A stretch of DNA of 64,000 nucleotides from Paludibacteraceae bacterium (GTDB lineage Bacteria > Bacteroidota > Bacteroidia > Bacteroidales > Paludibacteraceae): contig JAILLP010000023.1 of the NCBI GenBank assembly GCA_024693065.1, positions 1 through 64,000 on the forward strand. Direction: 5' to 3'. The notes beneath the pieces were generated by a model. That model was not told the DNA's origin, made no database searches, and saw nothing but the letters and a program-made list of their open reading frames with translations. This document shows, piece after piece, positions 5,957 to 35,647 of the stretch. A program made the position numbers and the translations under genes. How positions within the stretch are numbered: position 1 is the stretch's first letter; every line of letters starts with the position of its first letter.

Positions 5957-6036
5957 AATGGTAAATAATTAAAAAATTAGTAATTGAAAAATATTATTAT
6001 TGGTTGATGATATACCTCTTTGTCGGATGATAACCA

Positions 6037-6089
6037 ATCAAAAGGAGGTGAAAGCAGGGATATGTCCCTTTCATTTCACCTCCTTTGAT
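6037..6089. terminator. Long hairpin downstream of the S41 peptidase gene
   Basis: ATCAAAAGGAGGTGAAA...TTTCACCTCCTTTGAT inverted repeat with an inner GGGAtatgTCCC stem. Confidence 0.7.
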
Positions 6090-6105
6090 ATGATTGACCT
6101 TTTAT

Positions 6106-7731
6106 TTACTCTTTTGTAGACATCCCTTTATTGTATAGGTTTTTGTCTTTTAGAGCTTCCACCCCTTTTAGGAAGATTGGATTTTCGTCATTCATGATTT
6201 GATAATACTCGCTTGTGTTCCATAAATCTCTGGCAATCATTGCTTTGAGTTGCTTCTTTATGAGCTCCTTGGACTGGTTGAATTGCTCTTCGTTGAATTC
6301 GACCTTTTCTTTTTCTCCTGCTTCAGTCACTTCTTTCAACTCTTGATCGGAGATTTCGAATGTCTGGTTATATTGGATGAACCCCGTCTCTTTTTTCTTG
6401 GCGTTATTTACATTGTACTTCTTTTCCAATGTGCTTCTGTTTTTGTCCAAATAGTTCAGGACGAAGTTGTTCAAGACATTTTTAGCGGCCAAATCACGAT
6501 GGTATTTCGAGTATTTGGTTGTGTCCAATGGAACGAACAAATCTGGCATGATGCCACCTCCTCCATATACGGGACGTCTTTTCTCTAACGTGAAATATTT
6601 CAGGGAATCGGGGAAGGATATGCTATCCTCATGCATCAATTCACCTCTGTTGTATCTCTCGATAAAGTCTTTGTCGTAGTCCTTCAGATTGTTCTTGTAT
6701 GGGCGTTGTACACACCTTCCCGAAGGAATGAAATATTGGGCGACGGTTAATCGGATTTGTGAACCGTCAGGGAGTGGAACAGGTTTCTGCACCAATCCTT
6801 TACCGAATGTCCTGCGTCCTACAATCAAGCCTCTATCCCAATCTTGAATTGATCCGGAAAGGATTTCGCTGGCGGAGGCTGAGCTTTCGTTGACTAAAAC
6901 GACAAGTTCCCCTTTTTCGAAACTAGGCTTTCCTGTGGTGTTGAATGTCTCTCTTGGCTGAGAAACGCCTTCGCTGTAGACCACTAACTTGTTAGGTGCG
7001 AGGACGGTGCTTGCCAATTGGACTGCTGTCTTCAGGTATCCTCCTCCATTGTCTTGCAGGTCGAGAATGAGGGATTTCATGCCTTTCGACTTGAGTTTGT
7101 CCATCGCTTCGGTATACTCCTGCAAAGTGGTCTCGCTGAATTTGTTCACCTTTATATATCCGATCTTATCGTCCACCATATATGCGGCGTCGATGCTGTA
7201 GATAGGGATTACATCTCGGATTATCTTGAACTCGATCAGTTCCTTCACTCCCCGTCTGAGCACTTTCACGTTGACGGATGTGCCTTTGGGTCCACGGAGC
7301 CTTTTCATGATGTCCGTGTTCTGCATGTTCACACCTGCGATGGTGGAGTCGTTCACGTAGACGATCCTATCGCCTGCGAAGATGCCCACTTTTTCGGAAG
7401 GACCACCTGATATCGTTTGGATAACCAATAGGGTGTCTTCCATCATTTGGAAGACCACTCCGATACCCTCGAACTTTCCATCGAGTGGTTCGTTCATTTT
7501 CTGTACCTCACTCTTAGGTATATATTTCGAGTGAGGGTCCAATTTCTCCAACATTCCGTTGATGGCGTTGTCAATTAGCTTTTCAGCATTGACGGTATCC
7601 ACGTAAAACCTATCGATGGCGACCACGGTCGTTTGCAGCTTTTGTAAGTCGCTATAGCTGACCGATGCGTGAGCGCATAGGAATACTCCTATCGCCAACA
7701 ATGTGGCAAACAATATTCTGGCTATCCTCAT
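6106..7731 (-). CDS. S41 family C-terminal processing peptidase (PDZ + tail-specific protease)
   Basis: PDZ domain (GIGVVFQMMEDTLLVIQTISGGPSEKVGIFAGDRIVYVND) and S41 catalytic motif (LVNESSASASEILSGSIQDWDRGLIVGRRTFGKGLVQ). Confidence 0.95.
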   Translation of the reverse strand: MRIARILFATLLAIGVFLCAHASVSYSDLQKLQTTVVAIDRFYVDTVNAEKLIDNAINGMLEKLDPHSKYIPKSEVQKMNEPLDGKFEGIGVVFQMMEDTLLVIQTISGGPSEKVGIFAGDRIVYVNDSTIAGVNMQNTDIMKRLRGPKGTSVNVKVLRRGVKELIEFKIIRDVIPIYSIDAAYMVDDKIGYIKVNKFSETTLQEYTEAMDKLKSKGMKSLILDLQDNGGGYLKTAVQLASTVLAPNKLVVYSEGVSQPRETFNTTGKPSFEKGELVVLVNESSASASEILSGSIQDWDRGLIVGRRTFGKGLVQKPVPLPDGSQIRLTVAQYFIPSGRCVQRPYKNNLKDYDKDFIERYNRGELMHEDSISFPDSLKYFTLEKRRPVYGGGGIMPDLFVPLDTTKYSKYHRDLAAKNVLNNFVLNYLDKNRSTLEKKYNVNNAKKKETGFIQYNQTFEISDQELKEVTEAGEKEKVEFNEEQFNQSKELIKKQLKAMIARDLWNTSEYYQIMNDENPIFLKGVEALKDKNLYNKGMSTKE

Positions 7732-7784
7732 TTCTGTGCGTTGTTATTGTCTGTTTATAAATTCGTCAGTCTTCACCTCATGTT

Positions 7785-8822
7785 TTAGATGAGATGGATA
7801 TTGTGCTTTGCACATTCTTGGCGCATATCTTCTGGCCAAATGCTTGCCTGGATTTCTCCGACGTGCGCTTTCCTGAGGAAGAACATGCAGAGCCTTGATT
7901 GCCCGATACCTCCTCCGATGGAGAGTGGCAACGAACCTTCCAATAATCTCTTGTGGAAATAGAGCTCCTTCCTTTGCTCCTGTCCGGTCATTTCCAACTG
8001 CTTGAGCAATGCCTCTTTGTTGACGCGGATACCCATGGAGGACAACTCCATTGATTGCTCCAGAACGCTATTCCATACGAGAATATCTCCGTTCAAGCCT
8101 GGAAGCCCATCCTCTCCCGGCGTGGTCCAGTCGTCGTAGTCCGGTGCTCTTCCGTCATGGCGTTCTCCGTCGCCTAATGGTCCGCCGACACCCATCACGA
8201 ACACAGCCCCGTATTTTTTCACGATCTCGTTTTCACGCTCTTTCGGGGTTAGGGTAGGGTACATCTGACGAAGTTTCTCCGCATGGATGAAGAAAATCTT
8301 CTCAGGCAACATGGGTTTGATGCTTGGGTACATCTCGTACACCACGTACTCCGTGCGTACCATTACGGAATAGATACGGTTCACGATGCTTTTCAGGAAG
8401 TCGATGTTCCTTTCCTCCGCTGTCATGGTCCTCTCCCAATCCCATTGGTCCACGTAGAGTGAATGTAGGTTGCCGAGCTCCTCGTCCGAACGAATCGCGT
8501 TCATGTCGGTGTATAGTCCGTAGCCTGGCTCGATGTGGTATTCGCCCAACATCATTCTTTTCCACTTCGCTAGAGAGTGGACCACTTCCGCCTTTTGATC
8601 GCCTAAATCCTTGATGGGGAATGAAACCGCCCGTTCCACGCCGTTGAGGTCATCGTTGATGCCTTGGCCTTTTAACACGAAAAGAGGGGCGGTAACCCTC
8701 CTCAACCTTAATTCTGCGGATAGACTTCCTTGGAAGAAGTCCTTTATTTTCTTGATGCCGAGCTCTGTCTCCCTGGCATCTATCAACGGTTTGTAAACCT
8801 TTGGAATTCTAAGATAACTCAT
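7785..8822 (-). CDS. asnA: Aspartate--ammonia ligase
   Basis: MSYLRIPKVYKPLIDARETELGIKKIKDFF; TDMNAIRSDEELGNLHSLYVDQWDWE; GGGIGQSRLCMFFLRKAHVGEIQASIWP. Start chosen at MSYLRIP rather than the longer ORF start at 8897. Confidence 0.95.
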   Translation of the reverse strand: MSYLRIPKVYKPLIDARETELGIKKIKDFFQGSLSAELRLRRVTAPLFVLKGQGINDDLNGVERAVSFPIKDLGDQKAEVVHSLAKWKRMMLGEYHIEPGYGLYTDMNAIRSDEELGNLHSLYVDQWDWERTMTAEERNIDFLKSIVNRIYSVMVRTEYVVYEMYPSIKPMLPEKIFFIHAEKLRQMYPTLTPKERENEIVKKYGAVFVMGVGGPLGDGERHDGRAPDYDDWTTPGEDGLPGLNGDILVWNSVLEQSMELSSMGIRVNKEALLKQLEMTGQEQRKELYFHKRLLEGSLPLSIGGGIGQSRLCMFFLRKAHVGEIQASIWPEDMRQECAKHNIHLI

Positions 8823-11652: not shown

Positions 11653-12518
11653 TTTTGTTCCAATAAAGAAAGTATATATTGTCCGTAAAGCGTTTTGCTT
11701 AATCGTTCACCAGCTTCTCGGAGTTGTTCGTCCGAAATCCATCCGTTTCTCCATGCGATCTCCTCGATGCAGGCGATGTAGAATCCCTGTCTCTTTTGAA
11801 TGGTTGCCACGAAGTTGCCTGCTTCCAAGAGGGAATCGCAATTGCCAGTGTCCAACCAAGTGAATCCTCTCCCGAACTTTAGCATTCTTAGGGTTCCCTC
11901 TTCGAGGTACATTTTATTCAGGTCCGTGATCTCATATTCCCCACGGGCTGATGGTTTCAGCCTTTTCGCTTTTTCGGTTACAGTTTCGTCGAAGAAGTAA
12001 AGTCCAGGCACCGCATAATTGGATTTCGGGTTCTTAGGCTTTTCCTCAAGGGATATCACCTTGCCTGTCTCGTCGAATTCCGCAACACCATAGGCGGATG
12101 GGTCTTTAACATAGTATCCGAAGATGGTGGCTCCTTTTTTCTGCTGCGCCGCTGTGTGGAGCATCTCGGAAAAGTTTTGCCCATAGAAGAGGTTGTCTCC
12201 TAAAATCAGACATCCAGCCTCTCCGTTGAGGAACTCCGCACCCAAAACGAATGCCTGAGCCAATCCGTTAGGTTCGTTCTGTACGACGTAACTGAATTCC
12301 ATCCCGAAATCCTTGCCCGTTCCCAGCAGTTGCTTGAACATGGGTAAATCTCTCGGGGTTGAAATAATCAATACCTCACGTATGTTGGCTAACATTAAAG
12401 TCGAAAGCGGATAGTAAATCATCGGTTTGTCGTAAACCGGCATAATCTGCTTCGATATGGCCTTGGAAAGCGGGAATAGACGAGTGGCGCTTCCTCCCGC
12501 GAGTATGATGCCTTTCAT
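11649..12518 (-). CDS. rfbA: Glucose-1-phosphate thymidylyltransferase
   Basis: MKGIILAGGSATRLFPLSKAISKQIMPVYDKPMIYYPLSTLMLANIREVLIIST. 4-nt overlap with rfbC. Confidence 0.97.
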   Translation of the reverse strand: MKGIILAGGSATRLFPLSKAISKQIMPVYDKPMIYYPLSTLMLANIREVLIISTPRDLPMFKQLLGTGKDFGMEFSYVVQNEPNGLAQAFVLGAEFLNGEAGCLILGDNLFYGQNFSEMLHTAAQQKKGATIFGYYVKDPSAYGVAEFDETGKVISLEEKPKNPKSNYAVPGLYFFDETVTEKAKRLKPSARGEYEITDLNKMYLEEGTLRMLKFGRGFTWLDTGNCDSLLEAGNFVATIQKRQGFYIACIEEIAWRNGWISDEQLREAGERLSKTLYGQYILSLLEQK

Positions 12519-12531
12519 TCCGTCTCCCGTC

Positions 12532-13017
12532 TTATTTTTTGTTTAAAAGAACAGTGTTGATGGCGTTTCTGATCTCGTCTTTAGGAAGTGCTCCTCTGCT
12601 TGCTTGTGGTTGTCCCTCTTTCGGAATGAATACAAGCAACGGAATGCTGGATGCGCCAAAATATCTTGCCAGTTCTTTTTCTTCGTCGATGTTGATCTTG
12701 TAGATGTATACCTGATCTTGGAACTCTTTTGAGAGATCATCGAGGAATGGCGAAATCATTCTGCAAGGGCCACACCAAGAGGCGTAGAAGTCAAGAACAC
12801 AAGGCTTGTCTCCCAAATAATTCCAACCTTCAGCGTCAACATTAATCACCAGTTTCTTGAATTCCTCACGATTTAAATGCTTCACCAAGGATTTCTGCTC
12901 CGTTTTTTGCTTTGCTTTCCCCTGATTGTTATTGTTTCCTCCGCCAGCGTACAAGCATGAAGATAATCCCAAAAGGAGGCACAAAATCGATGTCTTTAAT
13001 AAATTTTTTGTTCCCAT
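12532..13017 (-). CDS. Secreted thioredoxin-family protein
   Basis: CVLDFYASWCGPCRMISPFLDDLSKEF active site (CGPC), preceded by a signal peptide/possible lipobox (LGLSSC). Confidence 0.9.
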   Translation of the reverse strand: MGTKNLLKTSILCLLLGLSSCLYAGGGNNNNQGKAKQKTEQKSLVKHLNREEFKKLVINVDAEGWNYLGDKPCVLDFYASWCGPCRMISPFLDDLSKEFQDQVYIYKINIDEEKELARYFGASSIPLLVFIPKEGQPQASRGALPKDEIRNAINTVLLNKK

Positions 13018-13194
13018 TTCAAAATATATTTTTTCTTGTTTTTATCGTATGGACTAACTCTTTATTCTGCAAAGTTAATGTTTTTTTTCTATTCGCAACG
13101 GTTGCGGTGCATGCTAATGTTAAAAAATGGAAAGAACGCCCTCCGAAATGTGAGAAAAACATTGGCGGATGTTTTACAACCTCTTTATATTGCA

Positions 13195-20843: not shown

Positions 20844-22760
20844 ATGGAAAATAAAGAAGTAGGATTCGTCCGCGTTGCCAGTGCTATCCCAGTGGTGGAG
20901 ATTGCCAATCCCAAGGTGAATGCCGACAGAATCATTTCGCTGATAGAAAAGGCGGCGCAAGAGAATGTCAAAATTGTATGTTTCCCGGAACTTTGTCTTA
21001 CGGGCTATACCTGTTCCGATCTTTTTTATCAACGTACTTTAATCGATGAGACGCAAAGGCAACTCCTTAGAATAAATGAGGCCGCTGGTCGGCATGGACT
21101 CTATGCCATTGTGGGGGCTCCCTACTATCGTGATGGTAAACTATATAATGCGGCTTTCGTGGCTGGTACGGGCGACCAGTTCTTCCATACGGAGGTAGAT
21201 AAACAATATTTGCCAAGCAACAATGAGTTCTACGAGAAACGTTGGTTCACTCCTGGATTCGGTGAGAAGAGGCAGATTTTTGAGACCGATGGACTAAAAT
21301 TCGGCATTGAGATCTGCGAAGACTTATGGATGCCGGCATCTCCAAGTGACGAGCTCTGTCTGGCGGGTGCGGAGATCATCTTCAACCTCTCTGCCAGTGA
21401 TGAACTGATTGGCAAGGAGGCTTACCGCCGTCAATTGGTGAAGCAGAAGTCTGCCACGAATGTGTGTGCCTACATCTATACGGGTTCTGGCTTCGGAGAG
21501 AGTAGTACCGACCTCGTCTTTTCCGGCACTGCCATCCTCGCTGAAAACGGTAGTCTGTTGGCCACGTCGGAACGATTCTCTTTCAAAGAACAGCTCACCA
21601 TTGCCGATATTGACGTGCAGCGATTGCAGGCGGATCGTCTGCGCAACTCCGCTTTCATCATCGGAAATCAGAACCCTAACAAGAAAAACGAAATAGAAAT
21701 CACTCATCTTGGGCCAATCTATCTATATGCCAATCCATCGGATGTGACTCGCACATTCGCACCTCATCCATTCGTTCCGCCAGAGGACGAGATGAAGACA
21801 CGTTGCAACGAGATCTTCTCCATCCAAGTGGGTGGCTTGGCAACGCGCTTGTATCACACAGGCATCCAGAAGGCGGTTGTGGGCATTAGTGGAGGTCTCG
21901 ACTCTACACTCGCACTGCTTGTGATGGTGAAGACATTCGATAAGCTAGGCCTTCCTCGTAAAAACATTGTCGGCATCACAATGCCTGGTTTTGGCACCAC
22001 TGGTCGCACCTATCACAACTCACTCAATATGATGAAGAGTCTGGGTATCTCGATCAAGGAGGTGGACATCAAACCAGCTTGCTTGCAGCACCTGAAGGAT
22101 ATTGATCATGACCTTTCCGTTTTGGATGTCACCTATGAGAACACACAGGCACGTGAGAGAACACAGATCTTGATGGATTATGCCAATAAGATTGGTGGAT
22201 TGGTGGTTGGAACGGGCGACTTGTCAGAGCTGGTGTTGGGTTGGGCAACCTACAACGGCGACCACATGAGTATGTATGCTGTCAACACATCGATTCCGAA
22301 GACATTGGTGAGATACTTGGTGAAATATGCGGCTCTTTATGAGATGGATGAGGCCGCAAAGGAGACGTTGCTGGATGTCTGTGACACACCCGTCAGTCCG
22401 GAACTTCTTCCTGCCGACGACAAAGGAGAGATCGCACAAAAGACAGAGGATTTGGTGGGACCTTACGAGCTTCACGATTTCTTCATCTACTACACCCTTC
22501 GTTTCGGTTTGTCGCCTACAAAGATTTTCTTTATGGCATGCAAGGCGTTTGAAGGTAAATATGATAATGCGACGATATTGAAGTGGATGCGCACGTTCTA
22601 TTGGCGTTTCTTCGCGCAACAGTTTAAGAGAAGCTGTATGCCGGATGGTCCGAAGGTTGGTAGTGTCAACCTCTCACCACGTGGCGATTGGAGAATGCCA
22701 AGCGATGCATCCAGCAAAATATGGATTGAAGAGGTGGAACGTTTAACAAAAAATATATGA
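20844..22760 (+). CDS. nadE: Glutamine-dependent NAD+ synthetase
   Basis: N-terminal nitrilase/glutaminase domain (CFPELCLTGYTCSDLF; GIEICEDLW) and synthetase domain (VVGISGGLDSTLALLV; VVGTGDLSELVLGWATYNGDHMSMYAVN). Confidence 0.97.
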   Translation: MENKEVGFVRVASAIPVVEIANPKVNADRIISLIEKAAQENVKIVCFPELCLTGYTCSDLFYQRTLIDETQRQLLRINEAAGRHGLYAIVGAPYYRDGKLYNAAFVAGTGDQFFHTEVDKQYLPSNNEFYEKRWFTPGFGEKRQIFETDGLKFGIEICEDLWMPASPSDELCLAGAEIIFNLSASDELIGKEAYRRQLVKQKSATNVCAYIYTGSGFGESSTDLVFSGTAILAENGSLLATSERFSFKEQLTIADIDVQRLQADRLRNSAFIIGNQNPNKKNEIEITHLGPIYLYANPSDVTRTFAPHPFVPPEDEMKTRCNEIFSIQVGGLATRLYHTGIQKAVVGISGGLDSTLALLVMVKTFDKLGLPRKNIVGITMPGFGTTGRTYHNSLNMMKSLGISIKEVDIKPACLQHLKDIDHDLSVLDVTYENTQARERTQILMDYANKIGGLVVGTGDLSELVLGWATYNGDHMSMYAVNTSIPKTLVRYLVKYAALYEMDEAAKETLLDVCDTPVSPELLPADDKGEIAQKTEDLVGPYELHDFFIYYTLRFGLSPTKIFFMACKAFEGKYDNATILKWMRTFYWRFFAQQFKRSCMPDGPKVGSVNLSPRGDWRMPSDASSKIWIEEVERLTKNI

Positions 22761-23467
22761 TCGTGAGAAAAGAATTGCTCATTCTGGCAACGGCTGTGTT
22801 AAGCGCTTGCGGCGGGGCGAACACCAATCAGGAGCAACGTTCGGAGACACTGAGTAAGGATCTTCCTGAAGACACGGTATTGGTAGTGAAGGAACTGCCT
22901 TCATTTACCTCTCCCGACCGCCAATTTATGGATGTGCGTGGCAACGTTTCCAAATTGTCTGTTCAGGTAAGTAATTGTGACTCTACTTGGAGTGGCAAGC
23001 TCGAACATGTGGAATGGATGGATAAGACATACACATTCGATCAAAAAGGTGTTGTTGTTTTTGATCCAAAGGAAAAAATCAGGCTTTCCCGCAACGACAA
23101 TGGACAAATCACAAAGAAGGAAGTCTATGTGGCGGACTTTGGCATTTATGTTTCCGAAGAGTATCTCTATAATGAACAGGGGATGTTGGACACGATGATT
23201 ATCAATGGGTTAGAATGCCATGGGAAAAAGTATTTCACGTATGACAATGATTTAGAATGTGTTTCCTCTGTTGAGCCCTCAATGGGAGAAGGCGAATATC
23301 TTTATACAGATGCCATGGAATATTTCAACATCGTGGAGTGGGATAGTTTGGGTAACTGGACAAAACGTCGTGTAACCACCGTTACCAAGTATTCTCAGGA
23401 CAGAAAGAAGATTGAGAAAGAGGAAAGTAAGTATCGTATAGAGACGAGAGAAATTTTTTATTATTAA
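22757..23467 (+). CDS. Hypothetical lipoprotein
   Basis: MIVRKELLILATAVLSACGG lipobox; 4-nt overlap with nadE. Confidence 0.6.
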   Translation: MIVRKELLILATAVLSACGGANTNQEQRSETLSKDLPEDTVLVVKELPSFTSPDRQFMDVRGNVSKLSVQVSNCDSTWSGKLEHVEWMDKTYTFDQKGVVVFDPKEKIRLSRNDNGQITKKEVYVADFGIYVSEEYLYNEQGMLDTMIINGLECHGKKYFTYDNDLECVSSVEPSMGEGEYLYTDAMEYFNIVEWDSLGNWTKRRVTTVTKYSQDRKKIEKEESKYRIETREIFYY

Positions 23468-23635: not shown

Positions 23636-24235
23636 ATGAAAAAAGTGTTGTTTTTATTGATGGCTGTGCTTCCTTTCATGGGAGTCAGTGCATCGAATGT
23701 GAGCAAGATTGAGTATGCCAATGCTGGTGATTTCTCCCTCGGTATTATGATTGGTGTTCCTCCTCATAGCCATGCGAATATGCCTTCTATTTCTGTGGAT
23801 GGTATGTGGGGCTTGGCGGACGGATTCATCCACACGAAGACGTTCGGTGACAATGGTGCCATCGATTTGGGCGCATATATCGGATACTGTAACTGGACGG
23901 ATAAATTTTATGAGAGAGGTTATGAATTTAAGCATTCTTATTGGGAGTTGCCGATGGCTATCCGTTGTGGATTCCATTTCCAGTTCGTTCAGCATTTGGA
24001 CGTATATGCGGGTTTCCAAAGCGGTGTGGCAATTGTTCATTGGAGTGATACGCATGGTCCTGAGAAGGTCAGTGATGGCGATTGCAATGGTATCTTTGGT
24101 AACTATTTGGGCGCAAAATGGCACTTCACTGAGGGCTTCGGCGTGAAGGCTGAATTCTCGAGCGATTGGATCGGTAAGGGTGAGGAGCATAATAACATGC
24201 CTCCTTTCGCTGTTGGTGTGACGTTCAATTTCTAA
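23636..24235 (+). CDS. Outer-membrane beta-barrel family protein
   Basis: Signal peptide; GDFSLGIMIGVPP, KTFGDNGAIDLGAYIGY; terminal FAVGVTFNF. Confidence 0.7.
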   Translation: MKKVLFLLMAVLPFMGVSASNVSKIEYANAGDFSLGIMIGVPPHSHANMPSISVDGMWGLADGFIHTKTFGDNGAIDLGAYIGYCNWTDKFYERGYEFKHSYWELPMAIRCGFHFQFVQHLDVYAGFQSGVAIVHWSDTHGPEKVSDGDCNGIFGNYLGAKWHFTEGFGVKAEFSSDWIGKGEEHNNMPPFAVGVTFNF

Positions 24236-24312: not shown

Positions 24313-24906
24313 ATGAAAAGGATTTTTTTATTGGTTATTTCCTTTTTGCTTGTCGGAAATATGATGGCAGGTAATGGAAAAGTGAGTGAAATTGGCGTCG
24401 TAAAACAGGGCGGTTGCAATTTGGGGTTTATGATCGGTGTGCCGCCAATTAATTACTACGAGAGTGGCGAACCTACGGATCCTACGATTCCTACGTTCTC
24501 GGTAGATGTTAATTGGGGCTTGGCTTCCGGATTCATCAAAACCAAGACTTTCGGTAACAATGGTGCTGTCGATTTGGGCGCATATTGGGGTATTGACCAT
24601 TATAAAGGCGTCTGGGATCGCGGAAGGGGAATGTTGCAGAACTCTATCTTGATCAGAGCTGCTTTCCATTTCGAGTTCGTGAAGAATTTGGATGTCTTCA
24701 TGGGTATCGCCAATGGTGTGAATATCTTCGGTTCCACGAATGACCATCCGGGATGGGACTTCGATGATTGCAAGTATGCCGGTGGTATTTACGGTGGTGT
24801 GAAATATTACTTCACGGATCATTTCGGTCTGAAGATCGAGTTCGGTTCTGACTGGAACGAGAAGAATCTTACGAATTTCGCAGGTGGTTTCACATTTAAG
24901 TTCTAA
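24313..24906 (+). CDS. Outer-membrane beta-barrel family protein, paralogue of preceding gene
   Basis: GFMIGVPP, WGLASGFIKTKTFGNNGAVDLGAYWG; terminal FAGGFTFKF. Start at MKRIFLLVIS. Confidence 0.7.
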   Translation: MKRIFLLVISFLLVGNMMAGNGKVSEIGVVKQGGCNLGFMIGVPPINYYESGEPTDPTIPTFSVDVNWGLASGFIKTKTFGNNGAVDLGAYWGIDHYKGVWDRGRGMLQNSILIRAAFHFEFVKNLDVFMGIANGVNIFGSTNDHPGWDFDDCKYAGGIYGGVKYYFTDHFGLKIEFGSDWNEKNLTNFAGGFTFKF

Positions 24907-25024: not shown

Positions 25025-26743
25025 TTATTCCACTAGGATCTTTATGCTCCTCTTTTCACCCTCTTGGCATATCTCCGCAATGATGATTTGTCCTTTGTAT
25101 ATACGTAGATCGATGGTTCCCCCCGAGTTGTTCGTTGACGCCGCAATGAGTTCGCCTTTTAAGTTGTAGAGAGTTGCCTTCTCGCTCTTGCGGAGGTGCA
25201 GTTGCCCGTCGCTCAGGTGGATGTAAGTCTCTTGTGGAGCGTCGTTCAAACCATTCCCTTTTCTCTCCTTGTAGACAAACCGTCCGATTTTGTTCGCTCC
25301 GAATGCCGCATCGTATTGTGCGGACGGATTGCCGAATTGTATGCAGTGGTAATTTTTGTCGCTCTTGTGGTCACCATATTCTGAGATTCGGATGAATAGC
25401 TCGTACGTGCCTTCCGTCATCTCTTGCGGAATCTCCAAGTGTGCGCTTAGGGTTGTTGTCTCCCTTGAAAGCCACTCCATGGGGTCGACAGGGTTTTTCG
25501 GAAGCACTTCGTGGCTCTCCGTCTCTCCCTTGAAGATGAACGAGACGATCGCTTTGCGGGTGAGGTTGCCGAACCCTACGTTCTCTATGCCCAGCGTCAC
25601 GTCGATGCCATTCTCTCCTGCCGGGGCGGTGTCGATCGTAGCGCTCCGAAGGATGAAGCGGTAGCCCAGGTGGTTCTCCACGTAGGTGTAACCATCCTTT
25701 CCGTTGTATTCGGGGTCGTCGCCATCGAAGGTGATCTCCTTCCATCCGAGGATGGTGGGTTGGTGCCATTCGTAGTTGAGGTAGGAGGTGTGGGTGCGGA
25801 AACCCTCTTGGGAGAGGTAGGCTGGGGTGTTGATTGGTTCGTCACCGTTGTAGTTGGCGACGAGCTCTCCGCCGTAGGGCGTGTGCTTCGAGTAGGTCTC
25901 GAGCCATTGCACCATCATCTCGCGGGTCATCTGATGTCCGCTTTCTCCCATGCCGATAGTGCCCAAGTCGCTGTAGGAGCCCAGATAGCCGTCGTTGTAC
26001 ATGCCGACGCGCAGGAGGGTGTCCCCTTTCGCCGCAAGGGCATTCTGGAACGCTTCCGAGTGGATGTCGAAGCCCGAGTAGTTGCCTCCCTTGTTGACAC
26101 CCAGCCAAACCGCCACGATGTCGGGACGGCGCACGCCGATCTTGATCTCTGGAGGGGTGCGTCGGAGCAGAGTCTGCAGCGCCTCCGCAATGTTCTCGTT
26201 GCTGCCCACGTTGCTGGAGTGCATCTCGCCCCAACTGCCGTACATGCCCAGCTCCACGAAGGTGATGACGTCCGTGTTGCGGGCGTAGACTTCTCCCAAC
26301 TGCTTCAGGTGACCGAGGATGACGGACTGCTCCGGGTCGCATTTGGTCGAGCCGTTGAACCAAGGGTCGTAGGCGAAGCGCACGATGGCTGTTTTCCCAC
26401 GTTGGCGCACGGCGTCCAGCGTCGCCTCGAATGCATCCAAGGCATCTTGGGTGAGTGGTCGGGAGACCCCGAAGGTGGTGTCGCCCGTCTCCTCGTTGAC
26501 GCTCAGCACCGCTTTGTCGGAGAATTCCGAGATGTCCATCCTGAGGTGGGAGATGTTGCCCCATGTGCTTGCTGGATGATTTCCTTCCGTCTTCAGATGT
26601 AGGCCTTGGGTTCGGTAGAATCCGATGCCGGGGTTCTCTAAGCTCTCTAAAGCGTCTGTGTAGTCCAATTCCTGCGGAACGGGTGCCGCATGGAGCGTTA
26701 AGCCTAAGAAAAGAAGGCCTGCGAAGGTGATGGTTCTTATCAT
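25025..26743 (-). CDS. Secreted DUF4832/DUF4874-type protein
   Basis: SLENPGIGFYRTQGLHL; LRMDISEFSD; AIVRFAYDPWFNGSTKCDPEQSVILGHLKQLGEVYARNTDVITFVELGMYGSWGEMHSS. CTD-like C-terminus. Confidence 0.75.
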   Translation of the reverse strand: MIRTITFAGLLFLGLTLHAAPVPQELDYTDALESLENPGIGFYRTQGLHLKTEGNHPASTWGNISHLRMDISEFSDKAVLSVNEETGDTTFGVSRPLTQDALDAFEATLDAVRQRGKTAIVRFAYDPWFNGSTKCDPEQSVILGHLKQLGEVYARNTDVITFVELGMYGSWGEMHSSNVGSNENIAEALQTLLRRTPPEIKIGVRRPDIVAVWLGVNKGGNYSGFDIHSEAFQNALAAKGDTLLRVGMYNDGYLGSYSDLGTIGMGESGHQMTREMMVQWLETYSKHTPYGGELVANYNGDEPINTPAYLSQEGFRTHTSYLNYEWHQPTILGWKEITFDGDDPEYNGKDGYTYVENHLGYRFILRSATIDTAPAGENGIDVTLGIENVGFGNLTRKAIVSFIFKGETESHEVLPKNPVDPMEWLSRETTTLSAHLEIPQEMTEGTYELFIRISEYGDHKSDKNYHCIQFGNPSAQYDAAFGANKIGRFVYKERKGNGLNDAPQETYIHLSDGQLHLRKSEKATLYNLKGELIAASTNNSGGTIDLRIYKGQIIIAEICQEGEKRSIKILVE

Positions 26744-26833: not shown

Positions 26834-26864
26834 TTTGATTTTAGTGATTTAAATGCTATGTTTG
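26834..26864 (+). promoter_or_regulatory. Candidate promoter TTTG-N19-TATGTTTG for first paralogue of the array
   Basis: Bacteroidota -33/-7 elements with 19-nt spacing. Confidence 0.55.
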
Positions 26865-26891
26865 TGATGATAAGTACTTCAACAAACCCTT

Positions 26892-28967
26892 ATGGCAAAA
26901 AAACTTCTTCTCTTTATCGGTCTGCTTTCCCTCTTCGTGTGGAATGTTGAGGCTCGGAAGCGAAGTCCGTTCCGGTTGGAGAATGATTCCATCCTGCATA
27001 TCTGCTCAAATGTTCAGGAGCGGTATTATGAAGACATGTGCATCTCTCTAGAAATTGGCATGCCATTTTATTACACATCAGTTATAATTGATGAAGGGGT
27101 GGATTCCGCATGGGTTTATATTCCCTATGGATATGGTTCTACACCTCTTCCCGTAAGGTTGTTGAGCATTCCCTCCTCTTTGAAGTTCTTTATTTGGGAT
27201 GGTCCTTCTATAAAGAAAGTACAGTTGAATCCTAAGAATCCATACCTGCGTTGGAAGAATGGCGCTTTGTATAGCCGAGACATGAAGAATCTTTATTTTG
27301 GGCATTTGGAAGAAAATGGTGATTCCGTCTTTCAAGTACCTGAGACGGTGGAGAATATATGGGGAATCCCTGATGGTCATTTCTCGAAAGTCATCATTCC
27401 TGAGCGTTGTAAGAAGACTCCTGGTTATATCGATTGTGACACATTGATTATTCATTCAACTCATTCCCTGGATTGTTTGGATGACCATGTGATGTCGAAG
27501 CTTTCCTATCTGTACTGTCTCTCCGATTCTGTTGTGGCGCATATTTTGATGGAGGATTTATGGAAAAGTATCAGATGGAAGTTTGGACGTGATATTGATA
27601 TAGGAAAGATCCATTGTCCCAATTATGATATACGCAAGCGGGATACAAGTTGGATGCGGGAGAGTTATCGCCTGACTTGTGTCATGGAGGATGGTGACAC
27701 ATTGGTGGGAGTTGATACGATTTCTTCGGGAAGGAGTATTCAGTCGGTGATGATAGAGGGTATAGCGGACGAAAATGTGCGGTTTTGTAGGTATAATGAT
27801 ACCTATCACTTTTATGTCACCACGTATGACACGTTGTATCGTCTGCCATTGGAGGTCTTTGTGAAACCAAAGGAGCGGAAGCCTGAACCGAAATGTAGTG
27901 ATTTCGGCGAGGTGCGTGATTCCGTCTTCATCATTCGTGAGGGGGTGGATTCTTTGCCCTATTTGAGCAACAGGCCATCTTCCTTCCGGAAGGTGATTAT
28001 CCCGAAGTCAATGCGTTATATGGAAGGAGGTATCACCTGTGATAGTGTATTTATCTATTCCGACTCGTTACATGGAGCGTATTATATCGATGCGGATTAT
28101 TATTATGTGGAGAATGAGCAGCTCTATTTGTCGATTAAGCGATGGCTTATGAAGGATCGATCGGCTGTGGTCTATTCCCCCAATTATGGTATCCGCAAAC
28201 GAGACCTGTCGTTGCAGAAGAATACGAATCCTCCGATTTGGAAGGATGAACTAGGTAATGTTATTGATTTATCGAACCTCCGTCCCACAAACTATTGCGG
28301 CAAATATTTGCAGCTGACGATTGAAGGTATCAACCCTCGGAATTTGAGTGTTTCTTATGAATGGAAGGGTTATAAACGTAAGATGGTGTATAGTTGGAAA
28401 AAAGACAAAGATGGTTCAAAAAAGTTATTCTGGAGGTTGCCTGCTGCTGCGTATGGCGATTTGGAGTTGGAGTATGCGGTCTGGACGTATGACACTTTGC
28501 TGACCCTTCCGCAAAAGACGCAAATCAGGTATGTGAAACAAGATGGCTCTCCTTGGGGGGACGATTTTGACTCGATGGGATCGTGCCTCTATTATGTGCC
28601 GAGGGGAGAAACCTGTGAATCCTTGATGAAGTCGGGGAAGAAAATTAAGTGTTGGAAATCTGGGGATACGATACCTCGGCGGTATTTGAAACGGTTGGCC
28701 TTGGGCGCTTTGTATAAGAATGGAGAGTGTGGATCTATGGGTGGCAAAATCAACTACCTTTTGGATTGGAAAGACAATCGGAATTATCTCTATAATAGTG
28801 GACCATATACTTTGCACTTAGAAGATTTGATTCCTAAAAACCCTTTTGTGCAGATTCCTCCCAACCACCCTAGGGAGGTGTGGATGTTGGATATACGTCA
28901 ACTCGCTGATAATTGTTTTTGTCTTTGTAGGACTTGGCTCCCCATGCACTTTTACGTAGGCAGGTGA
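26892..28967 (+). CDS. Secreted BspA/LRR_5-related tandem paralogue 1
   Basis: Signal peptide; LSIPSSLKFFIW...NPKNPYLRWKNGALYSRDMKNLYF; C-terminal MHFYVGR. Confidence 0.75.
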   Translation: MAKKLLLFIGLLSLFVWNVEARKRSPFRLENDSILHICSNVQERYYEDMCISLEIGMPFYYTSVIIDEGVDSAWVYIPYGYGSTPLPVRLLSIPSSLKFFIWDGPSIKKVQLNPKNPYLRWKNGALYSRDMKNLYFGHLEENGDSVFQVPETVENIWGIPDGHFSKVIIPERCKKTPGYIDCDTLIIHSTHSLDCLDDHVMSKLSYLYCLSDSVVAHILMEDLWKSIRWKFGRDIDIGKIHCPNYDIRKRDTSWMRESYRLTCVMEDGDTLVGVDTISSGRSIQSVMIEGIADENVRFCRYNDTYHFYVTTYDTLYRLPLEVFVKPKERKPEPKCSDFGEVRDSVFIIREGVDSLPYLSNRPSSFRKVIIPKSMRYMEGGITCDSVFIYSDSLHGAYYIDADYYYVENEQLYLSIKRWLMKDRSAVVYSPNYGIRKRDLSLQKNTNPPIWKDELGNVIDLSNLRPTNYCGKYLQLTIEGINPRNLSVSYEWKGYKRKMVYSWKKDKDGSKKLFWRLPAAAYGDLELEYAVWTYDTLLTLPQKTQIRYVKQDGSPWGDDFDSMGSCLYYVPRGETCESLMKSGKKIKCWKSGDTIPRRYLKRLALGALYKNGECGSMGGKINYLLDWKDNRNYLYNSGPYTLHLEDLIPKNPFVQIPPNHPREVWMLDIRQLADNCFCLCRTWLPMHFYVGR

Positions 28968-29003
28968 TGTGGGATTATAAAAATAGTAGAAATAATCAAT
29001 CAT

Positions 29004-31127
29004 ATGGCAAAAAAACTTCTTCTCGTTATCGGTCTGCTTTCCCTCTTCGTGTGGAATGTTGAGGCTCGGAAGCGAAGCCCGTTCCGTTTGGAGAATGATA
29101 CCATCCTGCATATCTGCTCCAACCTCTCGGAGATGGATTGTATGGCTTACGGTGCGAGTGATAGAATTGATCAAAGTGATTCTCCTTCTGATTATTTTAC
29201 TACTTATCCCTATTGGCGCATTAAGAACATAGTGATAGACGAAGGGGTTGACTCTGTTTACTTTGGCTTGTATCTTATTTCGGCAAAGAGGCTGAGTATC
29301 CCTTCTTCGTTGAAATACTTGTATTTTTCTCAGGAAGTGCCTCCCGGATTGGAAGAGGTACGGTTGAATGCCAAGAATCCCTATTATCGATGGGAGAATG
29401 GCACATTGTATAATTGCGATAAGACCCAGCTCTATTTTATGCTGCCAAGTGCGGTGGATTCCGTGTTGCAATTCCCTGAAACGGTGGAACATGTATGGAA
29501 TCTTCCTGAACGCTATTACCCGAAAGACACGCTTTACTTGAAAGACCTTCCATCGAGACATTGGGAAGGATATTTGGAGCGTTATCCGAAAGACATTCAT
29601 TACTCGAAAATTGTCTTCCCAAGGCATTGTAAGAAATATCCGGAGTATCTTCCTTCTTGCGATTCATTGATCATTCTGTCGGAACATTGTCCGGAATGGT
29701 TGGAAGAGGTCGCGGAAAATGTTTCCTACCTGTACTGCCATTCCGATTCTGTCTTATTACATATCTTGCAGGAGAATGCAGGGCGTAGTACCCATACCCA
29801 TAGTACTGAATGGAATTTTAGAGATAAAGGAAAGTTCCATAGCCCCAATTATGATATACGCAAGCGGGATACGAGTTGGATGCGGGAGAGTTATCGCCTG
29901 ATTTGCGTCACGGAGAATGGTGACACGCTAGTGGGTGTCGATTCGATTCCATCAAATTGGCGACGCTTGGGAATTGAGGGAATAGCGGACGAGAATGTGC
30001 GATTCGACAATCAGGATGGTCGCTATTGCTTCTATGTCGCAACGTATGACACATTATATCGCCTGCCGTTGGAAGTTTATAAAAAACCGACGGAGTCAGA
30101 ACTTGAACTTATTGAATATAAATCTAAACCGAAATGGAGTTTTTATGGCGAGGTGAGGGACTCCGTGTTCACTATCCGTGAGGGGGTGGATTCTTTGTTC
30201 CGTATGTGGTGGAACGATCTACCTCCCCTTCAAAAGGCAATCATCCCGAAGTCAATGCATTATATAGAAGATCATATCACCTGTGATAGTGTGTTTATCT
30301 ATTCCGACTCGTTGTGTGGCGGATTGGGTTATAATACGTGGTATTTTATCGATGCGGATTATTATTATGTGGAGAATGAGCAACTCTATTTGTCGCTTAG
30401 ACGTTGGCTTAAGAGGGAAAGACGATCGGCCGTGGCCTATTCACCTAATGCGGATATCCGCAAACGTGATATGACATTGCAACAGAACATGAATAAACCA
30501 GTTTGGAAGGATGGAAAGGGCAATGAACTAATGGATATGACTTGTTGCTCCGCAAAGCTCATGGCTGGGTTACATTTTGAAATAGAGGGAATTAATCCTC
30601 AGAATTTATGGGCGTTTTCACAGAGAAAGAATATAGAAAATGGTGGCATAATCTACGAAATGGAGTATTCGGTTTGGACCTATGACACATTGTTGCCTCT
30701 CCAGCAAAAGGACACGCTCAAATTGGTGAAGCGGGACGGAACACCTTGGACGGGAGGGTACAATCGGAAGGAGTGTGTGCTATATTATGTTCCTAAGGGG
30801 GAGTCTAGGCTTTCGTCGTTAGAATCAAGGGATTCTATTCGGGTATGGAGGTCGGGTGATACGATTCCTCGTCGGTATGCAAACCGTTTGGCGTTTGGAT
30901 TCATACTCACAAACGGGGAGTATGATCCTTCGCTTGTTATAAAGTGTGGAGTGATATACTTGGACAAACGGAATTATTTCGGGAATGGAGAGTTAATTAA
31001 AGTTGACGATGGAATCTGGGAATCTCCGAGGCAGTACAAGGAATTATGGTTGGAACATGTTCTGGAATATAGCCCTAATTGTATTCCCAAGGTGTATCCT
31101 CCTATGCATTTCTACGTAGGCAGATAG
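29004..31127 (+). CDS. Secreted BspA/LRR_5-related tandem paralogue 2
   Basis: Near-identical signal peptide to copy 1; LSIPSSLKYLYF...NAKNPYYRWENGTLYNCDKTQLYFMLPS; C-terminal MHFYVGR. Confidence 0.78.
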   Translation: MAKKLLLVIGLLSLFVWNVEARKRSPFRLENDTILHICSNLSEMDCMAYGASDRIDQSDSPSDYFTTYPYWRIKNIVIDEGVDSVYFGLYLISAKRLSIPSSLKYLYFSQEVPPGLEEVRLNAKNPYYRWENGTLYNCDKTQLYFMLPSAVDSVLQFPETVEHVWNLPERYYPKDTLYLKDLPSRHWEGYLERYPKDIHYSKIVFPRHCKKYPEYLPSCDSLIILSEHCPEWLEEVAENVSYLYCHSDSVLLHILQENAGRSTHTHSTEWNFRDKGKFHSPNYDIRKRDTSWMRESYRLICVTENGDTLVGVDSIPSNWRRLGIEGIADENVRFDNQDGRYCFYVATYDTLYRLPLEVYKKPTESELELIEYKSKPKWSFYGEVRDSVFTIREGVDSLFRMWWNDLPPLQKAIIPKSMHYIEDHITCDSVFIYSDSLCGGLGYNTWYFIDADYYYVENEQLYLSLRRWLKRERRSAVAYSPNADIRKRDMTLQQNMNKPVWKDGKGNELMDMTCCSAKLMAGLHFEIEGINPQNLWAFSQRKNIENGGIIYEMEYSVWTYDTLLPLQQKDTLKLVKRDGTPWTGGYNRKECVLYYVPKGESRLSSLESRDSIRVWRSGDTIPRRYANRLAFGFILTNGEYDPSLVIKCGVIYLDKRNYFGNGELIKVDDGIWESPRQYKELWLEHVLEYSPNCIPKVYPPMHFYVGR

Positions 31128-31156
31128 TGTTTCCCGTAGTTGATGTATTATGTTGA

Positions 31157-31187
31157 TTGGTCAATACCCTTAAATATTCTATATTTG
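31157..31187 (+). promoter_or_regulatory. Candidate promoter TTGG-N19-TATATTTG for paralogue 3
   Basis: TATATTTG -7 box; identical element order and spacing upstream of paralogue 4. Confidence 0.55.
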
Positions 31188-31217
31188 TGATAAAGTATAA
31201 TTCGTCATCGTATCGTT

Positions 31218-33344
31218 ATGAGGAAAACACTTTTTTATCTTTTCGTTGTAATTTCATTTCTTTCCTTTGGGTCTGCCGAGGCCAAACAGAAGCATCCTTT
31301 TAGGGTGGAGAATGATACCATCCTGCATATCTGTTCGAACCTTTCGGAGATGGATTGCTGGTCTTTCAGTGCGTATGTAAATAATATTGATGACTGTATT
31401 TATTTTATTTTTCCTTATTGGCACCTTAAGAACATAGTGATAGACGAAGGGGTTGATTCTGTATATCTTGACATGGATCTGATTTCAGCAAAGAGGTTGA
31501 GTATCCCTTCATCGCTGAAAACCTTGTACTTCCCAGTTGTGCCTCCTGGATTGAAAGAGGTGCGATTGAGTCTCAAGAACCCCTATATGCGATGGGAGAA
31601 TAACGCATTGTACAACCAAGATAAGACTTGTCTCTATTTTATTCTACCCAATGAGGGGGATTCGGTGTTGCAAATCCCCGAAACGGTGAAACAGGTGTGG
31701 AACCTTCCTACCATATATTATTCGAAAGACATTGATAACCTGAGAGACCTTCCCTCTAAATGTTGGGAGGATTTTCGGGAACGTTATCTGAAATACCTTC
31801 GATATTCGAAGATTGTTTTCCCAAAGCAATGTGAAAGATATCCGGAACATATTCCTTCTTGCGACTCATTAATCATCCAGTCGGAGCATTGCCCGAAATT
31901 GTCAGAATATGATGTGGAAAGATCCTCTTACCTGTATTGTCTTTCCGATTCTTTCGTGACGCATCTTTTTATGAATGATTCGTGGAATCGTATCAGGGGA
32001 TATAAAGATATTATTGATAGAGGAAAGATTTATTGTCCCAATTATGATGTACGTAAGCGAGATACGAGTTGGATGCGGGAGAGTTATCGCCTAACTTGCA
32101 TCCTGGATAATGGTGATACATTAGTGGGGGTCGATACCATTCCTTCGGGAAGGTACATTGAGTCGGCGAAAATAGAGGGAATAGCGGATGAGAACGTGGA
32201 ACGCAGGAAGGAGGATGATGTCTATCGGTTCTATATCCCTACGTATGACACGGTGTATCGCCTGCCGTTGGAGGTCTATGTAAAACAAAAAAAAACAAAG
32301 TCAGATCCAGAGTCGAAATGGAGTGATTACGGTGAGGTGAAAGACTCCGTGCTTACTATTCGTGAGGATGTGGATTCTTTGCCGAATCTGCATGGTTCCT
32401 TCCGTAAAGTGATCATCCCGAAGCGTACGTGTTATTTGGAATGCTCCATCAAATGTGATAGTGCGTTTATCTATTCTGATTCGTTGGAGACTTTGTCTCG
32501 TTATGGGTCGAATGAAATTGATGCGAATTATTATTACGTGGAGAATGAGGAGCCCTATTTGTCGCTTAGATGTAGCCTTATTGAGAGTAAATCGACCGAG
32601 GTCTATTGCCCTCATGCGGATATCAGCAAACGAAATATGGAGTGGCAACAGAACTTGAAACCTATATGGATGGACAGAAATGGCAAAGTAACGGATTTGA
32701 CCTATCACCCCTTGACCTACAGAACATACCTGAAGGTGGTAGTTGATGGAATGAGGTTCAATTATAATTTATATGTGTTTGATTGCCAAAGGGACCGTTA
32801 TTTGCGTGGAGGTGTTTCTCAGCATGAATTTATAAATGATGGCAAAACCGCTGATCTGGAGTATGCAGTTTGGACCTATGACACCTTGTTACCTATCCAG
32901 CACAAAGACACGGTCAGATTGGTGAAGCGGGATGGATCACCTTGGGGGGTAGGTTACGAAAGGAAAGAGTGTGTGCTCTATTATGTTCCAAAGGGCGAAA
33001 CAAGAGAGTCAATATTAGAATCAGGGAAGCAGCCACTTCTGATATGGAGGTCGGGCGATACGATTCCTCGACGATATCTAAAACGTTTGGCGTTCGGATT
33101 CATACTTGAAAACGAGGATTGCAATCTTTCGGGCTCAATGTACTATAAAGTTATATATTTGAACAAACGGAACTATCTCGACGTTTGTTATAAAGAAAAA
33201 TTTCTGGTTGTAAATAAAAAGGATGGACCCTATTCTGGAATCATGAAAATCCCGAATTGGTACAAGGAATTTTGGTTCTCTGACTTGCAGGAATTTTATC
33301 CAGATCGAGGGCATCTTCCTATGCATTTTTACATAGGCAAGTAG
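31218..33344 (+). CDS. Secreted BspA/LRR_5-related tandem paralogue 3
   Basis: MRKTLFYLFVVISFLSFGSAEA signal peptide; ENDTILHICSNLSEMD; C-terminal MHFYIGK. Confidence 0.78.
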   Translation: MRKTLFYLFVVISFLSFGSAEAKQKHPFRVENDTILHICSNLSEMDCWSFSAYVNNIDDCIYFIFPYWHLKNIVIDEGVDSVYLDMDLISAKRLSIPSSLKTLYFPVVPPGLKEVRLSLKNPYMRWENNALYNQDKTCLYFILPNEGDSVLQIPETVKQVWNLPTIYYSKDIDNLRDLPSKCWEDFRERYLKYLRYSKIVFPKQCERYPEHIPSCDSLIIQSEHCPKLSEYDVERSSYLYCLSDSFVTHLFMNDSWNRIRGYKDIIDRGKIYCPNYDVRKRDTSWMRESYRLTCILDNGDTLVGVDTIPSGRYIESAKIEGIADENVERRKEDDVYRFYIPTYDTVYRLPLEVYVKQKKTKSDPESKWSDYGEVKDSVLTIREDVDSLPNLHGSFRKVIIPKRTCYLECSIKCDSAFIYSDSLETLSRYGSNEIDANYYYVENEEPYLSLRCSLIESKSTEVYCPHADISKRNMEWQQNLKPIWMDRNGKVTDLTYHPLTYRTYLKVVVDGMRFNYNLYVFDCQRDRYLRGGVSQHEFINDGKTADLEYAVWTYDTLLPIQHKDTVRLVKRDGSPWGVGYERKECVLYYVPKGETRESILESGKQPLLIWRSGDTIPRRYLKRLAFGFILENEDCNLSGSMYYKVIYLNKRNYLDVCYKEKFLVVNKKDGPYSGIMKIPNWYKEFWFSDLQEFYPDRGHLPMHFYIGK

Positions 33345-33387
33345 GAATGTGATTTCCCGTTTTCGTGGAGAATCATTTTAATTTTAA

Positions 33388-33418
33388 TTGGGCAATAAAT
33401 TCAAATATTTTATATTTG
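33388..33418 (+). promoter_or_regulatory. Candidate promoter TTGG-N19-TATATTTG for paralogue 4
   Basis: Same spacing and motifs as upstream of paralogue 3. Overlaps the track's upstream start, so supports the start at 33448. Confidence 0.55.
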
Positions 33419-33447
33419 TAAAGAGTACAATTCGTCATCGTATCGTT

Positions 33448-35529
33448 ATGAGGAAAACACTTTTTTATCTTTTCGTTGTAATTTCATTTCTTTCCTTCGG
33501 GTCTGTTGAGGCTAAGCAGAAGAGTCTCTTTAGGGTGGAGAATGATACCATCCTGCATATCTGCTCCAACCTCTCGGAGATGGACAGTTGGACCTTCTAT
33601 GAGCGTGATGAAAGTGATTGTCCTTATGATTATTTTATTTCCCCCTTATGGCACTTTAAGAATATTGTGATAGACGAAGGGGTTGATTCTGTTCATCTTG
33701 GCTTGTGTCTTATTTCGGCAAGGGAGCTGAGTATCCCTTCTTCGTTGAAATACTTATATCTCCCGGAAGTGCCTCCTGGCTTGGAAGAGGTGCGGCTGAA
33801 TGCAAAGAATCCCTATTATCGATGGGAGGATGGCACATTGTACAATCGTGATAAGACCCAGCTCTATTTTATGCTGCCAAGTGCGGTGGATTCAGTGTTG
33901 CAAATCCCTGAAACGGTGGAACAGGTATGGACCATCCCTGATCGCTGTTACCAGAAAGGTCTCTCCTTTAGTAGAATTTGGGAAGGATATCCGGAGCGTT
34001 CTCCGGAAGACATTCATTACTCGAAAATTGTCTTCCCCAAGCATTGTAAGCGATATCCGGAATATCATCCTTCTTGCGATTCATTAATTCTCCTATCGGA
34101 TTCTGCCGTGGCACATAGTACAATGGAGGCTTTATGGGGACGGGAATGTACATATGATGAAAAGTTCAGTTGCCCTAATTCTAGGTTCCATTGCCCTAGT
34201 GGTTATGTTGATTGCCCCAATTATGATGTACGCAAGCGGGATACAAGTTGGATGAGGGAGAGCTATCGCCTGACTTGCGTCACGGATGATGGTGACACGT
34301 TGGTGGGTGTCGATACGATTCCTTCGGGAAGGAGTATTCAGTCGGTGAAGATAGCGGGTATAGCGGACGAGAATGTGCGATTCTGCGAGAAGAATGGTCG
34401 CTATCGCTTCTATGTCGCCACGTATGACACGTTGTATCAATTGCCATTGGAGGTCTATGAAAAAACAAATTTGCCAGAGCCAAAGCTAGAACCGACATGG
34501 AGTGAATTCGGTGAGGTGAAAGACTCTGTGCTTACTATTCGTGAGGATGTGGATTCTTTGCCAGATTTGCGTGGTTCCTTCCGTAAAGTGATTATTCCGA
34601 AGCGTACACATTATTTGGAAGGCTCCATAAAATGTGATAGTGCGTATCTCTATTGCGATTCGTTAAAGAGCAGGTATTATCATATTGGTGTGTGTAATCT
34701 AATCGATGCGCGTTATTATTACGTGGAGAATGAAGAACTCTATTTGTCGATTAAGCGTTGGCTTATGGAGAAAAAACAATCTGCTGTGGCTTATTGCCCT
34801 CATGCGGATGTGCGTAAACGCAATATGACGTTGCAACAGAACACGAATAAACCTGTTTGGAAGGACATGAAGGGCAATGTGATAAAGAATTTCACGTATA
34901 ATCGTCCAATAAGGTATGGTGCTTTGTTGCGGTTGGAAATAGAGGGAATGGACCCCAAGGATTTATGTGTATTAGATCGAAGGAAACGTTTTTTGAGAAA
35001 ATATGATGGATCTTTTGTGATAGAATTAGAATATGATGGCAGAAATGCCGAGTTGGAGTATGCGGTTTGGACCTATGACACATTATTACCTCTCCAGCAA
35101 AAGGACACGCTCATACCTGTGAAGCGCGACGGAACACCTTGGGGAAAAGGATACGACATAAAAGAGTGTGTGCTCTATTATGTCCCTAAGGGTATGACCA
35201 GGCATACCTTGTTAGAATCGAAGGATTCTATTATGATGTGGAGGTCGGGCGATACGATTCCTCGTCGGTATGCAAACCGTTTGGCATTTGGATTCATACT
35301 TAAGAATGGGGAGTATAATTCTTCGGGTACAATGGTGTTTGATGTCTTATGGCTGGACAAACGGAAGTATTTTAGGAAAGAATATTTAATTAGTAGTGAC
35401 AACCGTGAAAGTGGAATCTGGGGAATTCCGAAGCAGTGTAAGGAGTTTTGGGTGAGAGGTATTAAGGAATATTGGCCGGATTGTATTGCAAGGGGGTATT
35501 CTTCTATGCATTTTTACGTAGGCAAGTGA
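33448..35529 (+). CDS. Secreted BspA/LRR_5-related tandem paralogue 4
   Basis: MRKTLFYLFVVISFLSFGSVEA signal peptide (start shifted from 33388); ENDTILHICSNLSEMD; C-terminal MHFYVGK. Confidence 0.78.
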   Translation: MRKTLFYLFVVISFLSFGSVEAKQKSLFRVENDTILHICSNLSEMDSWTFYERDESDCPYDYFISPLWHFKNIVIDEGVDSVHLGLCLISARELSIPSSLKYLYLPEVPPGLEEVRLNAKNPYYRWEDGTLYNRDKTQLYFMLPSAVDSVLQIPETVEQVWTIPDRCYQKGLSFSRIWEGYPERSPEDIHYSKIVFPKHCKRYPEYHPSCDSLILLSDSAVAHSTMEALWGRECTYDEKFSCPNSRFHCPSGYVDCPNYDVRKRDTSWMRESYRLTCVTDDGDTLVGVDTIPSGRSIQSVKIAGIADENVRFCEKNGRYRFYVATYDTLYQLPLEVYEKTNLPEPKLEPTWSEFGEVKDSVLTIREDVDSLPDLRGSFRKVIIPKRTHYLEGSIKCDSAYLYCDSLKSRYYHIGVCNLIDARYYYVENEELYLSIKRWLMEKKQSAVAYCPHADVRKRNMTLQQNTNKPVWKDMKGNVIKNFTYNRPIRYGALLRLEIEGMDPKDLCVLDRRKRFLRKYDGSFVIELEYDGRNAELEYAVWTYDTLLPLQQKDTLIPVKRDGTPWGKGYDIKECVLYYVPKGMTRHTLLESKDSIMMWRSGDTIPRRYANRLAFGFILKNGEYNSSGTMVFDVLWLDKRKYFRKEYLISSDNRESGIWGIPKQCKEFWVRGIKEYWPDCIARGYSSMHFYVGK

Positions 35530-35647
35530 AACTGAAATGCGGCATGTTTTTGCATCCCGGGCACTTGGACTGCGCGGATTTATTCGCTAATTCGGTTTTT
35601 TGTCTTTCTTTTTTGTAATTTCGTGGTTGTAACGATAATTGGATGAT

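Follow-up and report, generated by a model that had tools for sequence, protein, structure and literature searches.

A mosaic tandem array of leucine-rich-repeat-related and beta-sandwich proteins exchanged between species of Paludibacteraceae

How do several divergent versions of one large protein come to stand side by side on a bacterial chromosome, and what could they be kept for? The question is raised by a locus of a Paludibacteraceae bacterium (assembly GCA_024693065.1, contig JAILLP010000023.1, positions 1 to 64,000; this whole stretch of 64,000 nucleotides is hereafter called the window), where an initial annotation made from the sequence alone had described four tandem genes encoding secreted proteins related to BspA and to leucine-rich repeats (LRR) of the LRR_5 type. 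The analysis presented here establishes that the array is a mosaic and that segments and whole genes have been exchanged between species. As to the encoded proteins, the best reading overall is an exported, recombining repertoire for recognition at the cell envelope, an interpretation on which our confidence is evenly balanced.

A four-gene tandem array with exchange between species

The four open reading frames (ORFs) were confirmed in the window, consecutive on the + strand and coding for 691, 707, 708 and 693 amino acids. Their alignment also bore out the shared motifs, with small exceptions: copy 1 has ENDSILHICSN, and copy 2 has SPNYD in place of CPNYD. Copy 1 (26892-28967), recognized by ORF, alignment and profile search, is predicted to be an exported LRR/sandwich protein, and its type also comes first in the arrays of four related genomes (G005, G006, G007 and G015). 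Copy 2 (29004-31127; ORF and alignment) lies 36 bp behind copy 1 and is followed by copy 3 (31218-33344; ORF, alignment and profile search) and copy 4 (33448-35529; ORF and alignment). The listed ORF of copy 4 begins with the TTG codon of position 33388, but its 693 residues are counted from the ATG at 33448, the better start because the same signal peptide as in copy 3 begins there. Over the full-length alignment, the other copies share 50-53% identity with copy 1, and copy 4 shares 62-63% with copies 2 and 3. A profile search of the bacterium's own genome (G000) retrieved exactly these four full-length copies at 1162-1311 bits, so that the array is not a product of chance; in addition, residues ~59-162 gave weak matches to two further proteins, both of which are LRR_5 proteins according to Pfam. 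The ratio of non-synonymous to synonymous divergence (dN/dS) between paralogues ranges from 0.28 to 0.45, which denotes purifying selection; the array proteins have therefore been kept functional.

The exchange is apparent at several levels. Sliding windows between species display segments of 98-100% identity beside segments of 65-80%, and the pairwise homoplasy index (PHI) test rejects clonality (observed 0.473, permuted 0.682 +/- 0.003, 0/1000). Over 1878 nt, copy 4 shares 98.8% identity with a copy in G015, with a synonymous divergence (dS) of 0.018, in a pair of genomes whose gyrB genes are 74.8% identical and saturated at synonymous sites. Likewise, an array gene is 98.3% identical between G005 and G004, the gyrB identity of which is 74.4%. 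A sharp breakpoint separates 66.5% identity on the left from 98.7% on the right when position 10116 of L039 is compared with position 13587 of L036; the observed difference of 0.322 exceeds the shuffled maximum of 0.105. The background was estimated by comparing ~0.78 Mb of the bacterium's own genome with ~1.08 Mb of G007: the 356 homologous windows of 240 nt have a median identity of 74% and a single one reaches at least 97%, compared with 6 of the 33 array windows (Fisher p=1.6e-6, a value to be taken as indicative since the windows are not fully independent). The array genes thus cross a species gap that most of the sampled DNA does not. Of the expansion by duplication proposed initially, the tandem amplification stands; what had been missed is the main process, the exchange of segments and whole genes revealed by the PHI test, the breakpoints and the identities.

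Within the genus, 7 of 16 genomes carry the family, usually in arrays that comprise about 4-5 copies wherever a count is possible, some arrays being interrupted where a contig stops. In two other genera, five genomes hold one copy each, at 42-45% identity. The named relatives are metagenome-assembled genomes (MAGs) titled Paludibacteraceae or Bacteroidales, many of them from rumen, reticulum or omasum. Among the genomes searched, all finds of the family fall within Paludibacteraceae, and an order-wide sample contained it in 0 of 393 other genomes, in agreement with the lineage-specific character first attributed to it. One-to-one orthologues in distant taxa were not encountered, nor did the proteins turn out to belong to a well-characterized family with ordinary lipoprotein export or secretion by the type IX secretion system (T9SS). 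Viral contigs and plasmids contained no relative of the family, hence nothing that would point to carriage by phages or plasmids.

The site itself is polymorphic. In G001, G003, G009 and G010, the stretch 26847-35587 of the window is swapped for a common non-coding allele of ~255 bp, bounded by the flanks at window positions 26846 and 35588. The arrays of G005 and G006 occupy the same site as in the window, those of G004, G007 and G015 lie between a gyrB-side block and a gene for a 462-aa protein, and that of G014 is found at a third location. One array copy of G005 is broken by a ~1.25-kb insert containing an ORF of ~155 aa (L036, about 11745-13025).

Domain architecture and structural relatives

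The array protein is internally duplicated (hhalign E=2e-17). Each repeat runs from LRR-like strands with CDSxxIxSDS through a helix and [CS]PNxDxRKRD to a sandwich ending near TYDTLYxLP, and the second pass is followed by a C-terminal domain. An AlphaFold2 model of the 693-aa copy (predicted local distance difference test, pLDDT, 74.5; predicted template modelling score, pTM, 0.58) agrees with two modules plus a last sandwich, each module combining LRR-like strands, a helix and an antibody-like (Ig-like) beta-sandwich; residues 449-693 modelled alone reached a pLDDT of 84 and a pTM of 0.73. A relationship of the C-terminal sandwich to the internal module as a third copy was considered and found unsupported (hhalign E 0.09-0.47). 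All four copies terminate with MHFY[VI]G[KR], which the initial annotation had called invariant. Across 24 homologues it is nearly so: H, F and Y never vary, M hardly does, and K or S occasionally takes the place of G. In the models, MHFYxG[KR] forms the beta-strand with which the last sandwich domain closes. Mean identity is highest in the first sandwich (80%) and the last strand (85%); it falls to 47% in residues 216-256 and to 39% in residues 651-685.

The relation to BspA-type proteins holds for one part of the molecule. A profile built from the 24 homologues (the four copies and 20 others) and searched against all PDB sequences matched the BspA-type LRR protein EUBVEN_01088 (4h09) over residues 84-228 with E=4.6e-8 and, more distantly, PcpA (4cp6) with E=0.0046; Foldseek also finds 4h09 (1.0e-4). 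The LRR-like string is clearest in copies 2 and 4, and an island NPYxRWExGxLYNxDKTxLYF corresponds to an LRR_5 island common in the same genome. Pfam LRR_5 (PF13306), whose cut-off is passed by ~16 other proteins of the genome, matched none of the 24 homologues up to E=10. More generally, no Pfam family cut-off was reached by any of the four copies or the 20 homologues, and a NCBIfam scan of the four copies gave no family match; candidates such as DUF6515 and FNIP were rejected as chance-level. The published TpLRR repeat pattern (PMC2843621) had 0 matches in the four array proteins, whereas two LRR_5 proteins encoded by this genome contain 8 and 1. The homology to LRR_5 is therefore real for the N-terminal part, at residues ~84-228, where it extends to the fold of 4h09, and the array protein is a partial and divergent relative with degenerate repeats. 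Unlike BspA-type LRR proteins, it has only a few strands, set in two blocks, and no long solenoid; the majority of the chain is not LRR, and much of this remainder is beta-sandwich.

The C-terminal half, made of the last two sandwiches, is in its predicted structure most like domains D3-D4 of PorM/GldM, a structural resemblance only. In a Foldseek search with this half, six PorM chains came on top (4.9e-6 to 1.3e-4, best probability 1.00) and the next unrelated fold followed only at 7e-3, the best match lying among the D3-D4 structures (6ey6, 6ey5, 7cmg, 6ey4; E=4.9e-6). With the whole protein, PorM and 4h09 come first. At the level of sequence, hhalign gave a non-significant E=0.11 for GldM in a single comparison, and a search of the bacterium's own genome with GldM_4th (PF12080) matched only the true GldM and no array copy; a sequence-based relationship to GldM was accordingly dropped. 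In GldM, D3 is built of beta-strands alone and the D1-D4 portion is periplasmic (PMC5790014). Unlike PorM/GldM, the array proteins lack a membrane-spanning or helical D1 part, bear what looks like a signal peptide instead and form a mosaic array. Such a domain pair may exist outside the T9SS motor, and would then allow a wider envelope role of the fold to be tested.

Taken as a whole, this is a distinct sequence family, undescribed in the curated libraries searched (Pfam, NCBIfam, PADLOC and PHROGs). It is partly related to BspA/LRR_5, arranges its domains in an unusual order and has clearly been exchanged between species.

Predicted export, probable role and alternatives

Read by eye, the N-termini of the four copies resemble ordinary Sec signal peptides, which favours the export initially proposed; the same inspection found no lipobox, there being no cysteine near the cleavage site (...VEARKRS and ...AEAKQKH). 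The four genes would encode Sec-exported proteins of the cell envelope. Each would be built of two copies of a module, in which a small number of degenerate BspA-type LRR strands are joined to a helix and an Ig-like beta-sandwich, and of a C-terminal beta-sandwich. The genus would share a pool of divergent versions, from which each carrier samples about 4-5 in a tandem array served by several promoters. Homologous recombination among the copies and with DNA of other rumen species would swap genes and parts of genes, leaving the conserved blocks in place and reshuffling the variable ones. The most likely function would be a diversified layer for binding or recognition, located on the cell surface or within the periplasm, whose diversity may be favoured by a partner that itself changes, be it a phage, a protist, a glycan of the host or a bacterium living nearby. 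Provided that the proteins are exposed at the surface, the exchange of their genes is a natural record of the features in which selection favours variation among these rumen bacteria.

Several observations weigh against this interpretation. The proteins carry no known surface-export signal, neither a T9SS tail nor a lipobox visible by eye, and might be retained in the periplasm. The proteins show no enzyme motif, and the whole-gene dN/dS values bear no sign of positive selection. The likeness to PorM/GldM is not significant by sequence, and global TM-scores over the two-domain pair are just 0.31-0.39. Finally, the nadE/236-aa region of G015 (L146 1-1886), close to the first site, is 92% identical to the window at a gyrB identity of 75%; the array is therefore an outlier but not the sole exchanged DNA.

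Repertoires of recombining envelope proteins are already known, and on present evidence the array does not represent a new category. The Opa proteins of Neisseria are one such repertoire (PMC13183285), and the array resembles them by its divergent copies within a genome, its mosaic genes and its exchange between strains and species. It differs in that no phase-variable tract or inversion system was seen, in that its exchange spans ~25% gyrB divergence and in that a surface location and an antigenic role would here be putative. A search of the literature for a described LRR array with recombination in the rumen or in Bacteroidales found nothing matching in the library consulted. We assign a low probability to a bolder proposal in which a community-wide pool of LRR/sandwich proteins in rumen Bacteroidota would form a new kind of envelope recognition system, anchored or exported by the PorM-like domain ending in MHFYxG[KR], its modules being continually exchanged between species into strain-specific displays.

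Among the alternatives, the proteins could be T9SS cargo that carries a novel signal at its C-terminus, in which case the last sandwich and its MHFYxG[KR] strand would form a type of tail outside TIGR04183. T9SS tails are small sandwich domains, the system is present in the genome, and the terminal sandwich of the array proteins closes with a strand that hardly varies and that runs right to the C-terminus. However, TIGR04183, which has 78 matches elsewhere in the genome at E<=0.001, gave none within the array (C14:26892-35529), and no T9SS tail structure figured among the top Foldseek matches; to our knowledge, there is no experimental case of such a tail. We regard this alternative as unlikely.

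A periplasmic accessory or decoy of the T9SS is somewhat harder to sustain. In such a role the PorM/GldM-like half would dock at the place of PorM D3-D4 and the LRR part would sense or sort cargo, as could be expected from the Foldseek ranking of the whole protein and the C-terminal half, from a genome that encodes a GldM together with many T9SS tails, and from a signal peptide accompanied by no surface signal. Yet the similarity to GldM is not significant in sequence, the array genes do not lie near a T9SS operon, the family is absent from 9 of the 16 genus genomes (the array-less G001 has a GldM), and a machine part is not expected to vary as a mosaic.

The array form, the horizontal exchange and the presence or absence between close relatives would also suit a collection of factors conferring immunity or resistance to phages or to the toxins of neighbours, gathered by horizontal transfer; we consider this very unlikely, given that the four proteins have no match in PADLOC or PHROGs and that no toxin gene adjoins the array. 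Usual immunity proteins are far smaller.

An artefact of metagenome assembly or binning could be feared from relatives that are MAGs and from some arrays that end at contig ends. Assembly error is nevertheless highly improbable because the exchanged genes sit in long contigs with clade-specific flanks (C47 of G007, 227 kb; C42 of G005, 153 kb; C106 of G004, 62 kb, with the array near one end), and the pattern repeats in independent MAGs from different animals and projects. The vertical reading, in which a BspA/LRR_5 surface protein was duplicated in tandem and the copies diverged within each species with no special exchange, has next to no credit left and is already refuted as a complete account, for all that the paralogues are tandem and on one strand, single copies occur in two other genera and the order of types is partly conserved: it is contradicted by genes that are nearly identical between clades whose gyrB is saturated at synonymous sites, by the PHI result and sharp breakpoints, and by the outlying position of the array relative to the background.

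Promoter-like elements and neighbouring genes

The -7 element of Bacteroidota promoters is TAnnTTTG. Matches to this consensus precede the ATG of copy 1 by 35 bases (TATGTTTG, 26857-26864, +), that of copy 3 by 38 bases (TATATTTG, 31180-31187, +) and that of copy 4 by 37 bases (TATATTTG, 33411-33418, +), for a chance expectation of 0.06 per upstream stretch; these sites are candidate promoters. No TAnnTTTG element precedes copy 2, which begins 36 bp behind copy 1 and is probably co-transcribed with it, and most related copies present the same split between presence and absence. A search for inverted repeats that could delimit an invertible promoter at the array returned only weak, chance-like pairs.

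Upstream, a gene adjoining the array in divergent orientation (25025-26743, -) encodes a DUF4874/DUF4832 protein also present in array-less genomes. Two tandem related proteins next to the array (23636-24235 and 24316-24906) resemble outer membrane beta-barrels (PF13505, below cut-off). A 236-aa protein (22757-23467, +) with a lipobox-like start, ILATAVLSACGG, belongs to no Pfam family; in genus g223 (L045, L046 and L047), a ~30% homologue directly adjoins the single-copy member of the family and is encoded on the other strand. In G007, a ~4-kb block of three ORFs (L139, about 3980-7946) has no counterpart at the corresponding position of G004 and G015; by eye, the ORFs look like those of a DUF262 protein, of a helix-turn-helix protein and of a DNA methyltransferase, and the block could be a defence-type insertion near the array.

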